In this document: one piece after another, positions 28,282-32,415 of the stretch | How the letters are laid out: every line of letters begins with the position of its first letter | Numbering within the stretch: position 1 is the stretch's first letter | Assembly (NCBI GenBank): GCA_003222535.1 | Contig: QHWJ01000252.1 | Coordinates: 1 to 38,814 of the forward strand | DNA length: 38,814 nt | Origin: Acidobacteriota bacterium | GTDB lineage: Bacteria > Acidobacteriota > Vicinamibacteria > Vicinamibacterales > CAVVIG01 | Direction: 5' to 3' | Program-made: the position numbers and the translations under genes | The notes under the pieces: generated by a model | The model's database searches: none | Told to the model about the DNA's origin: nothing | The model's input: only the letters and a program-made list of their open reading frames with translations

Positions 28282-30534
28282 ATGCATTTCGCCTATCCCC
28301 TCCCCTGGTGGTTGGTGGTCATTCTCGCGGCAGCCGTCGCGGCCGTCGTCCATGCCGAATACCGCCGCCCGCTCTCGCGGCTCACCGGCGTGCAGCGCGG
28401 CGTGCTCATCAGTCTTCGCGTGCTCACGCTTGCGGCGCTCGTGCTGTTTCTCTTCCGCCCTATCGTTATCCGGCCGCCGGCCGGATCGCGCGAAGCGATC
28501 GTGCCCGTGCTCGTGGATGTTTCGCGCAGCATGCGGCTGGCCGACGCCGACGGCCAGACGCGCGTTGCGCGGGCCAACATGCTGCTGAAGAACGAGCTCG
28601 GCCTCGCCCTCTCCTCACGCTTCACGACGGAGATCTTCAGCGTGGGTGAGAGGCTCGCGCCCGCAAAGATTGGTGACCTCGCGGCCGACGCGCGCCGCAG
28701 CGATCTCACCGGCGCGCTGGCGGCGGTGCGCGAGCGCTTTCGAGGCCAGCGCGTCGCCGGCATCGTCGTCTTGTCGGATGGGGGGGACACTGGAAGGGCG
28801 GGTGGGTCGGGTGGGGCAGGTGGGGCGGGTGGGGCCGCGGGGGATGCTGGAGGGCCGCCGGTGTTTGCCGTCGGCATCGGATCGCCCGATGGCCCGCGCG
28901 ATCGTGAAGTGCTCGGCATCACGACCAGCGATCCGCGGCTCGATCATTCGTCGGTCGATCTTCACGTGACGGCGGTCAGCACGGGCTTCGGGCGGACCCC
29001 GTTCGCGTTGCGCGTGCTCGGCAACGGCCAGGTGCTCGATGCTCGGCGGGTCGTGCCACCTGCGGACGGGTCGCCGATCGATGAGGTCTTCACGGTCTCG
29101 CCGGATCCGCTGAACTCCACGGTCTATACCGCCGAAATCCCTCGCGATGAATCCGAGCCGGTGGTGGAGAACAACGTCCGCCACGTGCTCGTGAGCCCCG
29201 CGGGTCGCAAGCGGCGGGTGCTCGTCGTCGAAGGCGCGCCCGGCTTCGAGCACAGTTTCATGACACGCGCGTGGGCCAGCGACTCCGGTCTCGAGATCGA
29301 TTCGGTCACGCGCAAGGGCAAGAACGCCGACGGCCAGGATACCTTCTTCGTGCAGGCGGGCGCCGGCCGCTCGGCGGCGCTGACCAGCGGCTTTCCGGCG
29401 AAGCGCGAGCAGCTGTACGTCTACGACGCGCTCGTCATCGCGAACGTCGAAAGCGACTTCTTTTCGCGGGCGCAACTCGCGATGGCGGCGGACTTCGTCG
29501 CCGAACGCGGCGGCGGCCTGCTGGTGCTCGGGGGCCGCTCGTTTGCACGGCGCGGCCTCTCCGCCACGCCGCTCGAAGAAGTGCTGCCGGTGGAGCTGAA
29601 CGATCGTCGCGGCGGCATCGTGCGCACGGCGCTTGGCGAAGGAGACTTGCCGGCCCATAACAAGCTGACGCTGACGGCGGAGGGCGAGACGCACCCGATC
29701 ATGCGCATCGGCGGATCGCCGGACGAGACCCGCCGGATGTGGGCGGCGCTGCCGGCGCTCGCGGCGAGCGCGACGCTGGGCGGTCCGCGGCCGGGCGCAA
29801 CGGTCCTCGCGTTGACGACGGCGCCGGGGGGCGGTGTCTTTCCCGTAGTCGCCGTCCAGCGGTACGGCCAGGGCCGGTCGATGGTGTTCGCGGGCGAGGC
29901 GGCGTGGCGCTGGAAGATGATGGTCGCCTCGTCTGATCGATCGTACGAGTTCTTCTGGCGGCAGGCCGCGCGCTGGCTCTCGTCTCCCGCCCCCGATCCG
30001 GTGACGATCGCGGTGCCCGACGCGCCGGAGCCCGGCGATGCGATTTCGATCGACGTCGACGCGCGCGACGCTGCGTACGCGCCGGTCGCCGACGCGGCAG
30101 TCGACGCGACGCTGACGGCGCCGGGCGGCGAAACCCGGACGATAAAGTTGCGCCACGCGGACCCCGCGAGCGGCCGCTATACGTCCGCGCTGGGGCCCGA
30201 GCAGCCGGGGCTGTACCGCATCCACGCAGAAGCGCGTCGCGGGACGACGCCCCTTGGCGCGGCCGATCGGTGGATGTATGTCGGCGGGGCGGACCGTGAA
30301 TTCGCGGACCCTCGCCTCAACGAAGGGTTCCTGCGCCGTGTGGCCCGAAACTCCGGAGGGCGCTACGTCCGCGCCGCCGAAGCGTCGCGCGTGACAGCGT
30401 GGCTCCAGGCGGCCGTGCCGCAGAATGCAGCGCCCGAGCGCCATGACCTCTGGCACGAACCGTGGGCGTTCGGGCTCGTCGTGCTGCTGCTGTCTGCAGA
30501 GTGGATCCTGCGGCGGCAATGGGGGTTGCGATGA
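28282..30534 (+). CDS. Membrane vWA protein with GATase1-like domain
   Basis: The 750-aa protein starts with two helices (WWLVVILAAAVAAVVHAEY and LISLRVLTLAALVLFLFRPIVI). A vWA-like domain has MIDAS motif DVSRSM, and VLSDGGDT. A Rossmann-like domain follows (VLVVEGAPGFEHSF, YDALVIANVES, LVLGGRSF), like the glutamine amidotransferase-like domains common in these operons, with no convincing catalytic Cys triad. A C-terminal helix (WAFGLVVLLLSAEWIL) anchors it. An in-frame 9-bp repeat at 28784-28850 encodes a Gly-rich loop (GGSGGAGGAGGAAGDAGG). It resembles a fusion of BatB-like and amidotransferase-like parts. The ATGA at 30531 may couple it to the following gene. Confidence 0.85.
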   Translation: MHFAYPLPWWLVVILAAAVAAVVHAEYRRPLSRLTGVQRGVLISLRVLTLAALVLFLFRPIVIRPPAGSREAIVPVLVDVSRSMRLADADGQTRVARANMLLKNELGLALSSRFTTEIFSVGERLAPAKIGDLAADARRSDLTGALAAVRERFRGQRVAGIVVLSDGGDTGRAGGSGGAGGAGGAAGDAGGPPVFAVGIGSPDGPRDREVLGITTSDPRLDHSSVDLHVTAVSTGFGRTPFALRVLGNGQVLDARRVVPPADGSPIDEVFTVSPDPLNSTVYTAEIPRDESEPVVENNVRHVLVSPAGRKRRVLVVEGAPGFEHSFMTRAWASDSGLEIDSVTRKGKNADGQDTFFVQAGAGRSAALTSGFPAKREQLYVYDALVIANVESDFFSRAQLAMAADFVAERGGGLLVLGGRSFARRGLSATPLEEVLPVELNDRRGGIVRTALGEGDLPAHNKLTLTAEGETHPIMRIGGSPDETRRMWAALPALAASATLGGPRPGATVLALTTAPGGGVFPVVAVQRYGQGRSMVFAGEAAWRWKMMVASSDRSYEFFWRQAARWLSSPAPDPVTIAVPDAPEPGDAISIDVDARDAAYAPVADAAVDATLTAPGGETRTIKLRHADPASGRYTSALGPEQPGLYRIHAEARRGTTPLGAADRWMYVGGADREFADPRLNEGFLRRVARNSGGRYVRAAEASRVTAWLQAAVPQNAAPERHDLWHEPWAFGLVVLLLSAEWILRRQWGLR

Positions 30535-30545
30535 CCCACGGCCGC

Positions 30546-30647
30546 GGCGACCCTGAAGGGGTTGCCCTAGACGACCACGTCCACGGTGACCCTGAATGGA
30601 TCGCCCTCGGTGACCACGTCCCAGGCGAGACTGATCGAGTCGCCCTG
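30546..30647. repeat. 39-bp imperfect tandem repeat (two full units plus part)
   Basis: Units at 30546-30584 and 30585-30623 match at most positions (GGCGACCCTGAAGGGG... and GGTGACCCTGAATGGA..., both ending GACCACGTCC plus two bases). A partial third unit starts at 30624. Each unit contains a small inverted GGCGACC/GGTTGCC or GGTGACC/GGATCGCC pair. Read in the frame from ATG 30531, it encodes a 13-aa repeat (GDPEGVALDDHVH, GDPEWIALGDHVP). Confidence 0.75.
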
Positions 30648-30673
30648 CCCCGCAACCAACCCTGCACTCGTAG

Positions 30674-30763
30674 GGCGACCCTTTCCCGCCTCCGCTGGCT
30701 CGCGGGACGAGCCAGCTTCGGCGTGGCTCGCCGAAGCGGCGGCGCGAAGGCGGCAGGGTCGCC
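30674..30763. repeat. Cloverleaf-like structured element
   Basis: An outer stem pairs GGCGACCCT (30674-30682) with AGGGTCGCC (30755-30763). A second stem pairs CCGCCT (30686-30691) with AGGCGG (30748-30753). Inside are two perfect 9-bp hairpins with 5-nt loops: GCTGGCTCG/CGAGCCAGC (30694-30702, 30708-30716) and GCTTCGGCG/CGCCGAAGC (30715-30723, 30729-30737). The hairpins share two bases, so both full stems cannot form at once. Nearly the whole 90 nt is paired. It lies just before the C13-like gene. Confidence 0.8.
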
Positions 30764-30764
30764 G

Positions 30765-31724
30765 GTGCGGCTGCTCGGGACGCTCGTCGCGCTCCTCGTG
30801 TTCGCGTCCCCGGCGCACGCCGGCGAGCGCTACGCGCTGATCGTCACCGGCGCGGCGGGCGGCGAGGCATACGAGCAGAAGTACCTCAAGTGGCGCGTGG
30901 CCTTCGCGTCGACGCTGCGCGAGAAGTTCCACTACGCCCCGGAGCGGATGATCGTGCTCGCGCAGAGCGAGAGCGACGGGGTGCAGATGGCGACGCGCGA
31001 GAACCTGCAGCGTGCGTTCATCGATCTCCGCAAGCGGCTCAACAAGGACGATCAGCTGCTCGTGCTGCTCATCGGCCACGGCACGTCGCTCGACGGCGAG
31101 GAGGCGAAGTTCAATCTCGTCGGTCCCGACCTGACCGCGACCGAATGGGCCGACCTCGTCAAGCCGATTCCCGGCCGCGTGATCTTCGTCGATACCACCG
31201 GCGCGAGCTTTCCGTTCCTTCGAAGAATGGCGGGACGCAACCGTGTCGTGCTCACCGCCACTGATTCGGCCGCCCAGCAGTTCGAAACGGTCTTTCCCGA
31301 ATACTTCCTCAAGGCGTTCGACGATGTGGCGGCCGACCTCGACAGGAACAATCGCGTGTCGGTGTGGGAAGCCTTCACCTACGCGAGCGCTGGCGTACGG
31401 CAATGGTTCGAGCAGAAAGGGCAGTTGCCGACCGAGCGCCCGCTGCTCGACGACACCGGCGCCGGCGTCGGCCGTGAAGCGCTGAACCCGGGCACCGACG
31501 GAGCCGTGGCGCGCGTGACCTACCTTCAACCGGACGCTGCGCTCGCGCTCCCGGCCGATACCGCCGTGGCGGTGCTCGTGAAGCGCCGCGCCGAGCTCGA
31601 GACACAGCTCGAAGAACTGAAGGCGCGCAAGGAGTCGACGCCCCCCGCCCAGTACGACGCCGATCTCGAGAAGCTGCTCATCGAAATCGCCAGAGTCTCA
31701 GTGCAGATCCGCACGAAATCCTGA
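30765..31724 (+). CDS. Secreted caspase-like (peptidase C13-like) protein with Thr at the nucleophile position
   Basis: From GTG 30765 the protein is 319 aa with a signal peptide (VRLLGTLVALLVFASPAHA). The caspase/legumain-like core has GERYALIVTGAAGG, the His block VLLIGHGTSLDG (H105), and VIFVDTTGASFPF, where legumains have the Cys of VEACESG. By this alignment the Cys is Thr145, so ordinary cysteine-protease activity is lost. EYFLKAFDDVAADLDRNNRVSVWEAFTYA, cited in part, is typical of this bacterial family. A C-terminal coiled coil (about residues 272-319) may mediate binding. The alternative start ATG 30531 (ATGA overlap with the vWA gene) would add 78 residues encoded by the 39-bp repeat and the cloverleaf, which I consider unlikely. 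It closes the MoxR-type operon. Confidence 0.75.
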   Translation: MRLLGTLVALLVFASPAHAGERYALIVTGAAGGEAYEQKYLKWRVAFASTLREKFHYAPERMIVLAQSESDGVQMATRENLQRAFIDLRKRLNKDDQLLVLLIGHGTSLDGEEAKFNLVGPDLTATEWADLVKPIPGRVIFVDTTGASFPFLRRMAGRNRVVLTATDSAAQQFETVFPEYFLKAFDDVAADLDRNNRVSVWEAFTYASAGVRQWFEQKGQLPTERPLLDDTGAGVGREALNPGTDGAVARVTYLQPDAALALPADTAVAVLVKRRAELETQLEELKARKESTPPAQYDADLEKLLIEIARVSVQIRTKS

Positions 31725-31749
31725 CCTCTCGGGCCTCAGCCATTAACAG

Positions 31750-32415
31750 CTAGAAGTCGACCCGTTCCCACGGATCGAGCTGGCGCTTCCGAAAGAGGAA
31801 CACCCCGCCGAGGCCTGCCACGAAGCCGACCACGTGGGCCGCGAAGGCGACGCCGCCGCTGCCGTGGGTGGACGCCGTCACGGCGATCGCGCCGGCGCTG
31901 AAGAGCTGCATCAGGAACCAGAATCCGAGCAGCACGATGGCGGGCAGCTCGATGATCTGGATGAAGATCCACGGCACGAGCGTCAACACGCGCGAATGGG
32001 GATAGAGAACGAAATAGGCGCCCATGACGCCGGCGATCGCGCCGCTCGCGCCGATGGTCGGCAGCATGGAGCTCGGGTTCACCGCCACCTGTCCGAGCGC
32101 CGCCGCAATCCCGCACAGCAGATAGAAGAAGATGAAGCGGCCGTGGCCGACGCGATCCTCGACGTTGTCGCCGAAAATCCACAGATACCACATGTTGCCG
32201 ATCACGTGCGACCAGCTTCCGTGGAGGAACATGGAAGTGATGAGGGTCGGCCACGAGAAGTACGCAGGCACTACTCCGTAGATGGTCAGGAACTCGTTCA
32301 GCACATCGTGCGGCAGCGACACCTCGAACAGCCACGCGAGCGCGTTGAGAACGATGATCGTGATGGTGATGTAAGGCGTCGTCCGGGACGGAATGACGTC
32401 CCGCAGCGGGATCAT
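31750..32415 (-). CDS. Rhomboid family intramembrane serine protease
   Basis: The 221-aa membrane protein has six predicted helices. The catalytic dyad is Ser124 in IGASGAIAGVMGAY and His194 in AFAAHVVGF. HGSWSHVIGNMWYLWIFG is the loop-1/TM2 block with conserved His and Asn. Rhomboids cut substrate transmembrane segments within the bilayer. Length and motif spacing are normal. The ATG at 32415 has a TACAAT box ending 7 nt upstream, made by the edge of a CAGATT-type repeat. The C terminus (FRKRQLDPWERVDF) is cytoplasmic. The gene converges with the operon above at a 25-nt gap. Confidence 0.93.
   Translation of the reverse strand: MIPLRDVIPSRTTPYITITIIVLNALAWLFEVSLPHDVLNEFLTIYGVVPAYFSWPTLITSMFLHGSWSHVIGNMWYLWIFGDNVEDRVGHGRFIFFYLLCGIAAALGQVAVNPSSMLPTIGASGAIAGVMGAYFVLYPHSRVLTLVPWIFIQIIELPAIVLLGFWFLMQLFSAGAIAVTASTHGSGGVAFAAHVVGFVAGLGGVFLFRKRQLDPWERVDF

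Follow-up and report, generated by a model that had tools for sequence, protein, structure and literature searches.

Why does a 90-nt sequence with the appearance of a cloverleaf stand directly before a C13-like gene? The question is raised by positions 30674-30763 of the 38,814-nt stretch of DNA analyzed here (the window), a single contig of the draft genome G000 (8.06 Mb). The first-pass annotation described four nested perfect stems at this place and proposed a structured RNA, a REP/BIME-type element, or a recombination target. All four stems were confirmed (Table 1), as were the two bases (30715-30716) that hairpins 1 and 2 have in common. The minimum free energy of the 90-nt element was -62.5 kcal/mol, and none of 200 dinucleotide shuffles was as low (mean, -46.9; standard deviation, 3.6; z, -4.35). 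Furthermore, none of 1291 90-nt segments, taken every 30 nt along the window, folded as well. The helices are indeed far beyond chance, as had been claimed.

The 90-nt element is a composite, in which a GTAG REP stem surrounds a separate core. We consider it very likely that it represents a GTAG REP carrying an inserted mobile core.

Table 1. Features of the vWA–C13 junction (positions refer to the window)
Feature	Position	Strand	Sequence	Basis or remark
ATG sharing bases with the vWA-type gene's TGA stop	30531-30533	+	ATG	Candidate start; frame stays open across the repeats and on into the C13-like gene
Tandem array of three 39-nt units that each contain a short REP-like palindrome	30536-30652			Sequence repeat analysis
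REP copy	30546-30566	-		Pattern search; 2 mismatches to GGCGACCCTTTCAGGGTCGCC
REP copy	30585-30605	-		Pattern search; 3 mismatches to GGCGACCCTTTCAGGGTCGCC
Third REP copy, degenerate	30624-30644	-		By eye; unmatched at 3 mismatches
GTAG tag of the fourth REP	30670-30673	+	GTAG	Sequence; adjoins GGCGACCCT
Outer stem (REP stem arms)	30674-30682 / 30755-30763	+	GGCGACCCT / AGGGTCGCC	Fold and comparison with the empty REP
REP loop	30683-30685	+	TTC	Directly after the 5' arm GGCGACCCT
Inserted core, 69 nt	30686-30754	+	CCGCC...GGCGGC	Covariance-model hit at 30684-30756, 79.9 bits, this copy being itself in the model alignment
Core closing stem	30686-30691 / 30748-30753	+	CCGCCT / AGGCGG	Fold; kept across the family, zero double changes
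Core hairpin 1	30694-30702 / 30708-30716	+	GCTGGCTCG / CGAGCCAGC	Loop length near-constant, loop sequence variable across the family
Core hairpin 2	30715-30723 / 30729-30737	+	GCTTCGGCG / CGCCGAAGC	Alignment, covariation, sequence
Core hairpin 3, remnant	30736-30746	+		Alignments; 3 nt short of the family form GCGCC-NNN-GGCGC
Likely native start of the C13-like protein	30765-30767	+	GTG	Inferred from comparison with relatives

The outer stem is a GTAG REP

The empty form of the REP is GGCGACCCTTTCAGGGTCGCC, which has 38 exact copies in the genome of the window. At up to three mismatches, 127 forward and 110 reverse matches were found in this genome, and the reversed control gave none. Since GGCGACCCTTTCAGGGTCGCC is almost self-complementary, a single place may be counted twice, once per strand, and the number of distinct REP places therefore lies between 127 and 237. 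Compensated variants, for example GGCGAGCCTTTCAGGCTCGCC, are also present. With a GT[AG]G tag at the foot of the palindrome and many dispersed copies, the outer stem has the characteristics of a GTAG REP. The earlier assignment to a REP/BIME-type element applied to the outer stem and the upstream 39-nt units, but not to the core, a second, nested element that the first-pass annotation had not recognized.

The 90 nt would be a single element if a GTAG REP family with a long structured loop were copied whole by a REP-associated tyrosine transposase (RAYT). The GTAG tag and the matching arms of the window copy fit this idea, GTAG REPs with long self-complementary loops are described in PMC3733652, and the genome has many simple REPs together with one Y1 transposase gene. 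This gene (L031:1300-2030), the sole PF01797 (RAYT-like, Y1) gene found in the genome, is flanked by the palindrome CCGGCTTCAGCCGGACC twice on one side and by a relative of it on the other, a REP type that differs from that in the window. However, the outer stems vary widely among the copies while the cores are alike, and the same core occurs without an enclosing REP stem in heptamer arrays, in a GGGGCCCC/ACCCCC palindrome, and at REP bases. Moreover, the core-rich genomes G010 and G001 are without a PF01797 match, and, as a direct argument, a site in G026 has an intact heptamer array without the core. Whole copying of one REP with a long loop is disfavored by these data and very unlikely.

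The core is a dispersed repeat with conserved stems and variable loops

The core is a dispersed noncoding repeat, here found in one order, with conserved ends and stems and variable loops. BLASTN with a 116-nt region against the own genome gave 50 places at an E value of ≤10, of which 14, including the window, were at ≤1e-7. With R1, a covariance model built from 16 copies, we obtained 62 hits at E ≤ 1 in this genome, and 28 distinct loci at E ≤ 1e-3 after opposite-strand duplicates had been removed by eye. Among 60 genomes of the family and order, 41 (the own genome included) had R1 matches at E ≤ 0.01, with up to 64 hits per genome, in which one place can count on both strands. Nearly all genomes compared are draft assemblies. 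In a draw of 297 genomes from the phylum, the model R2 matched 15 of the 30 listed members of the order, again including the own genome, at E ≤ 1e-4; these 30 are taken to be all members of the order in the draw, since the negative list is arranged by kinship. At the same threshold, and with filters that lose weak matches, R2 matched none of the 267 phylum genomes outside the order. Viral contigs gave no exact match to two long core patterns, and plasmids gave no match of one core at E ≤ 1e-5. A phage or plasmid origin of the core was dropped because of these negative searches with the patterns and the core used.

The bounds of the core were set by comparison with the empty REP and with empty sites elsewhere, and by alignments. 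Alignment A2 comprises 76 copies from eight genomes, which are best hits and not a random sample (16 from G000, 20 each from G017 and G010, 4 from G024, 6 each from G016 and G001, 3 from G012, and 1 from G023). Eleven copies fetched from G047 and nine shorter copies from G024 and G016 stand outside it. A first alignment of the own genome (A1, 16 rows) omits L024 and L028 (damaged or truncated), L020 (short), and L006, L016, and L019 (with an insert). In A2, the consensus is CCGCCTCCGCTCGC-N11-GCGAGCTNCGGCGAGGCTCGCCGAAGCGCC-NNN-GGCGCGAAGGCGGC, the terminal inverted ends are CCGCCTYCGC and GCGRAGGCGG, and the core is exactly 72 nt long in 68 of the 76 copies. In being short and noncoding and in having terminal inverted repeats, the core resembles a MITE. 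The mean entropy was 0.23 to 0.28 bit in stem columns versus 1.3 to 1.95 bits in the columns of the hairpin-1 loop, for which 72 different sequences were counted.

Within the 76 copies, 95.9% of the cells pair in the cloverleaf structure. Changes on both sides of a pair were found in 8 pairs and 30 cells, compared to 2.8 pairs and 6.3 ± 2.2 cells in shuffles, and none of 500 shuffles was as high on any of five measures. Each of hairpins 1, 2, and 3 has such double changes, with 19 of the 30 cells concentrated in two pairs, and the closing stem has none. Unconstrained RNAalifold of the 76 copies retained hairpins 1 and 3, but the CCGC at the core's 5' end was paired with the 5' arm of hairpin 2, and the cloverleaf was left open. 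This lends some support to the competing folds that had been proposed. The three hairpins are supported by these data, and it is conservation that supports closure of the cloverleaf, which three covarying hairpins and a conserved closing stem can form. Because the window core is 3 nt short in hairpin 3, the first-pass annotation saw two inner hairpins; most aligned copies have three. It had named a joint lack of other copies and of covariation as speaking against the element, and both were clearly found.

Host repeats and empty sites of the core

The host repeats of the core belong to no fewer than three unrelated kinds, namely, REPs (with two distinct insertion points), heptamer arrays, and a longer palindrome. 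In G017, inspection by eye placed it in REP loops with various types of stem and, for another set of copies, at REP bases. In G047, the insertion point is the axis of CGGCTTC^AGCCG, and an intact REP of this kind is located beside copy L188. A REP base in G024, inspected by eye, is empty beside L200 (GCCTCGCGCTAC) and filled in L209 (GCCTC, core, and GCGCTACG). The core of G010 and G001 lies inside a longer palindrome with the empty form GGGGCCCC^ACCCC, which was intact in 12 of 14 among the matches listed for these genomes; L235 differs, and the stretch inspected for L236 was not the matched place. The filled palindrome was exactly GGGGCCCC, core, and ACCCC in four of the ten copies shown (L111, L219, L220, and L221) and a few bases off this form in the other six. 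Heptamer arrays hold the core in G010, G016, and G000.

A 123-nt variant of the core has a 51-nt palindromic module (ACCAGCCTCCGCC...GGCGG) between hairpins 2 and 3. It was present in six of eight own-genome stretches inspected (L051, L052, L055, L056, L060, and L019), and the stretches inspected for L053 and L054 did not show it. By eye, its settings included a heptamer flank as well as a REP loop and a REP base. Its occurrence at like places suggests that size variants with the same ends also spread.

The palindromic host repeat of G010 and G001 (L228 to L237) measures about 60 to 65 nt (CATTCTTCA...GGCGCCGGGGCCCCACCCCCGGCGC...GACGCTGATGCCTCG) and is dispersed in two genera. A further host repeat was observed in G012, where three cores (L224, L225, and L226) have the common long flanks ATTTCTC.GCGTGCTCTGCGAGC and TGCGTTCAAACGTCG.

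For the 10 of the 76 copies with a lag-7 flank identity of at least 0.5 (heptamer arrays), removal of the core in silico left the 7-nt register intact at offset 0 in 53 of 70 comparisons. The corresponding counts were 24 of 60 at offset -1 and 24 of 70 at offset +1, and the fraction was at most 0.40 elsewhere between -4 and +4. Offset 0 was the sole peak in eight of the ten copies; in L118 the best offset was -1, and in L117 offsets 0 and +1 scored equally.

In the copies without heptamer flanks, the outer arms pair in a run of at least 6 in 17 of 66 cases, compared to 48 of 806 mismatched flanks (from different copies of the same genome). That pairing runs occur in only 17 of the 66 suggests that many host repeats have decayed or never were palindromes. 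The means of the outer-arm duplex energies favored the matched flanks, with 10, 0, and 25 of 2000 permutations as low in G000, G017, and G010, respectively. The medians of matched and mismatched flanks (-7.15 and -8.10 in G000, -7.80 and -7.50 in G017, and -5.95 and -6.30 in G010) were not clearly better for the former, and energies of ≤-8 were not more common in matched flanks (7 of 16 versus 126 of 240 in G000; 7 of 20 versus 138 of 380 in G010).

Sister species provided empty sites at orthologous positions. Along a 7-kb region of G016 with two cores, G026 and G024 are colinear at 79 to 92% identity, and both cores are absent from them. At the first site, the heptamer array is present in all three genomes and the core in G016 alone; G026 aligns on both sides and G024 on the left side only, so that only G026 is a clean empty site. 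At the second site (L248:5650-5960 in G016), a heptamer array with the core lies between what we take to be ruvA and ruvB, and G024 and G026 have neither array nor core.

In summary, the clearest empty and filled sites differ by the core alone. The target duplication that marks MITEs failed to appear, and a 1-nt duplication of C at the joins is indistinguishable from zero duplication. Folded ends and joining without target duplication, as in elements of the IS200/IS605 type, were found for the core, with L117, L118, and the inexact palindromes as exceptions. That the core was inserted without target duplication is, in our view, highly probable. The proposed recombination target was borne out in the sense that the REP loop received an insertion.

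Search for a mobilizing enzyme

PF01797 was detected in 43 of the 60 genomes of the family and order. It gave no match in the core-rich genomes G010 (60 hits) and G001 (28 hits), both 97% complete; other core-rich genomes do have one. Among the matches listed, three of 30 Y1-transposase loci had an R1 match at E ≤ 1 (best E, 0.0022; 30.1 bits). RAYT/Y1 was rejected as the mobilizer because PF01797 gave no match in several core-rich genomes and R1 matched near just these three loci.

A site-specific recombinase of the IS110 type, or another one acting on double-stranded targets, could also move the core, the fold then having an RNA guide role or being incidental. According to PMC1525189, IS110 elements insert into REPs, and insertion without direct repeats is reported for ISPa11. 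PF01548 (IS110) genes were found in 31 of the 60 genomes, with 9 matches in G010, and there was a weak R2 match at the IS110 locus L267 in G017 (29.4 bits; E, 0.0015). This was the best of the R2 matches at E ≤ 1, which occurred in just three of the 30 IS110 loci among the matches listed. In contrast, G001 (28 hits), G040 (31 hits), G006, G042, and G047 have core hits and no PF01548 match, G006 being 66% and G047 74% complete; other core-rich genomes do have one. The targets of the core share, by eye, little beyond YC. IS110 was rejected as the mobilizer on the basis of the lack of a PF01548 match in G001 and G040 and of the few loci with R2 nearby, and we consider a recombinase of this kind unlikely. 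For each enzyme, absence is weak evidence, since a divergent gene can go undetected when draft genomes are searched with profiles.

A guide-RNA role was considered for the hairpin-1 loop because its length is nearly fixed and its sequence is not. It was dropped because the loops differ within one target type and, by eye, those of G017 and G010 drift around a consensus. An autonomous copy, with core ends around a gene, was dropped as well: in G010, the one genome inspected by eye in this way, no IS-sized pair of core ends bracketing a gene was seen. There, at least 22 of 24 matches to the 3' end lay inside core hits, and the 5' pattern gave 34 matches versus 12 for the control.

Could the copies be nonmobile and have been produced in replication, by gene conversion or template switching between GC-rich palindromes? 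The copies are very GC rich, many are located in palindromes, and the enzyme search was negative. However, such a process is difficult to reconcile with constant ends, with one length in most aligned copies (68 of 76), and with exact insertion in unlike targets, among them heptamer arrays with no resemblance to REPs. We regard it as highly improbable.

The vWA–C13 junction of the window

Two starts come into question for the C13-like gene (Table 1). The GTG at 30765 opens a signal-peptide-like stretch straight after the element, much as in the relative L127, and, at this G+C content, frames often stay open over long distances by chance. From these sequence features we infer that the GTG is likelier to be the start than the ATG at 30531.

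The eight C13-like homologues found were assigned to Acidobacteria bacterium (six, one of them 'gp6'), Terriglobia (one), and SAR324 (one). The junction was compared in seven relatives (L121 to L127), with L128 (SAR324, 32% identity) left out. In most of these seven, little sequence separates the vWA stop from the C13-like signal peptide, and the core is missing from the junction in all of them; R2 gave two weak matches (E, 0.64 and 0.80), both off the junction. Since the junctions of the relatives are mostly tight and without the core, the REP cluster at 30535-30764 is most simply explained as an insertion that was probably acquired at the window site.

Other small repeats were noticed at this junction in L123, L125, and L126. 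L126 has its own two-copy repeat there, and other relatives have short heptamer tracts; in L123, a palindromic heptamer tract was seen by eye within the coding sequence of the C13 signal peptide.

These comparisons bear on the proposal of a structured RNA. A transcribed RNA with a host function (mRNA stabilizer, attenuator, or small RNA) that spread as a module would account for covarying hairpins, conserved stems, and near-saturated loops, and many REPs are called plausibly transcribed in PMC3733652. Furthermore, GU cells exceed AC cells on the + strand (27 versus 15). However, this excess drops to 15 versus 12 without the two most variable pairs, Rfam gave no match at E ≤ 1 to either strand of 30000-31800, and the core is missing from the same junction in all seven relatives and from two sites in sister species. 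An RNA with a host function is thus very improbable. Being untied to one gene and missing from the junction in the relatives, the core is unlike an inherited cis-regulator of the vWA–C13 operon. What stands of the structured-RNA proposal is the covariation of the hairpins, which is real; a cis-regulatory role in this operon is not supported.

A model for the spread of the core

In our preferred reading, which we hold to be likely, the core is a nonautonomous mobile element that is acted on in trans and sits in a REP loop. A recombinase acting in trans would read the folded core ends, and the folded strand would be joined after a YC dinucleotide in the target, a motif beyond which little target commonality was seen by eye. 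DNA that is single stranded or opens readily, such as that on the lagging strand, could be the reason why REP loops, REP bases, and tandem arrays are preferred, since palindromes and slippage-prone arrays would supply exposed DNA for insertion. A single-stranded substrate, like that of IS200/IS605, is suggested by the precise joins without duplication, the folded ends, and the affinity for palindromes and for arrays that slip. Movement of the core by a single-stranded-DNA route is, in our opinion, a serious possibility.

For the window, the model suggests that the REP cluster grew at the vWA–C13 junction and that the core then landed in the loop of the last REP. The C13 start would then be immediately preceded by a hairpin of great stability, with possible effects on translation or on the stability of the mRNA. 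The nested layout explains how such a hairpin can come about at an operon junction without a regulatory origin.

Tentatively, the elements might form a new class of mobile elements of about 57 to 123 nt, in which the cloverleaf strand itself is the substrate for a recombinase, no duplication is left, and the insertion sites are slipping heptamer arrays as well as the loops and bases that other repeats expose. If so, they would be parasites of small repeats, confined in the genomes tested to one order, which probably belongs to Acidobacteriota. Small noncoding repeats are common in bacteria, and the manner of their spread is poorly known. The core family, with its constant ends, exact empty sites, restriction to one order in our sample, and sister species that differ by single insertions, makes the mover testable.

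Comparison with known systems

The outer REP is ordinary. The core is of a known broad kind, that of short nonautonomous repeats, and has unusual features: it lacks the target duplication of MITEs, has a three-hairpin fold, lives inside other repeats, and is one for which no parent was found. Among open-license PMC papers, the terms searched returned no published description of it.

GTAG REPs and the BIME or REPIN arrays associated with RAYTs share with the present locus the GTAG tag, the 9-bp palindrome, more than 100 copies, and clusters in both orientations, and they account for the outer stem and the upstream units. In contrast, the core has no GTAG tag, is about 72 nt long, has a multihairpin fold, and is also found in non-REP targets. 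IS200/IS605 transposons join their targets without duplication. In PMC6006769, they are characterized by secondary structures at their ends and by movement as single strands, to which the core can be likened; however, no linkage of the core to TnpA was found, it has no fixed target tetranucleotide (YC, by eye), and the whole element is a set of hairpins.

Bacterial MITEs such as Correia/NEMIS, ERIC, RUP, and YPAL, as presented in PMC2229807, are short, noncoding, and dispersed like the core, with inverted ends and size variants. The core differs from them in having no target duplication (or at most 1 nt), in being GC rich with three hairpins, and in entering small repeats, and its parent IS was not found. 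Specific insertion into REP palindromes is shared with IS1397, IS621, ISPa11, ISPpu9/10, and ISRm22; according to PMC1525189, ISRm22 inserts at the palindrome axis, and ISPa11 lacks direct repeats. Those elements encode a transposase, whereas the core, at about 72 nt, is too short for one and also occurs in heptamer arrays and another palindrome.

The nearest published precedent that we found is the nesting of REPs in palindromes, described in PMC3733652 for GTAG-23 of T. roseum and GTAG-15 of A. variabilis. There, too, a small repeat lies inside another palindrome, and hundreds of empty targets are reported for T. roseum. However, in those cases the REP is the inserted part, while in ours it is one of several hosts, and the insert is a different and larger element.
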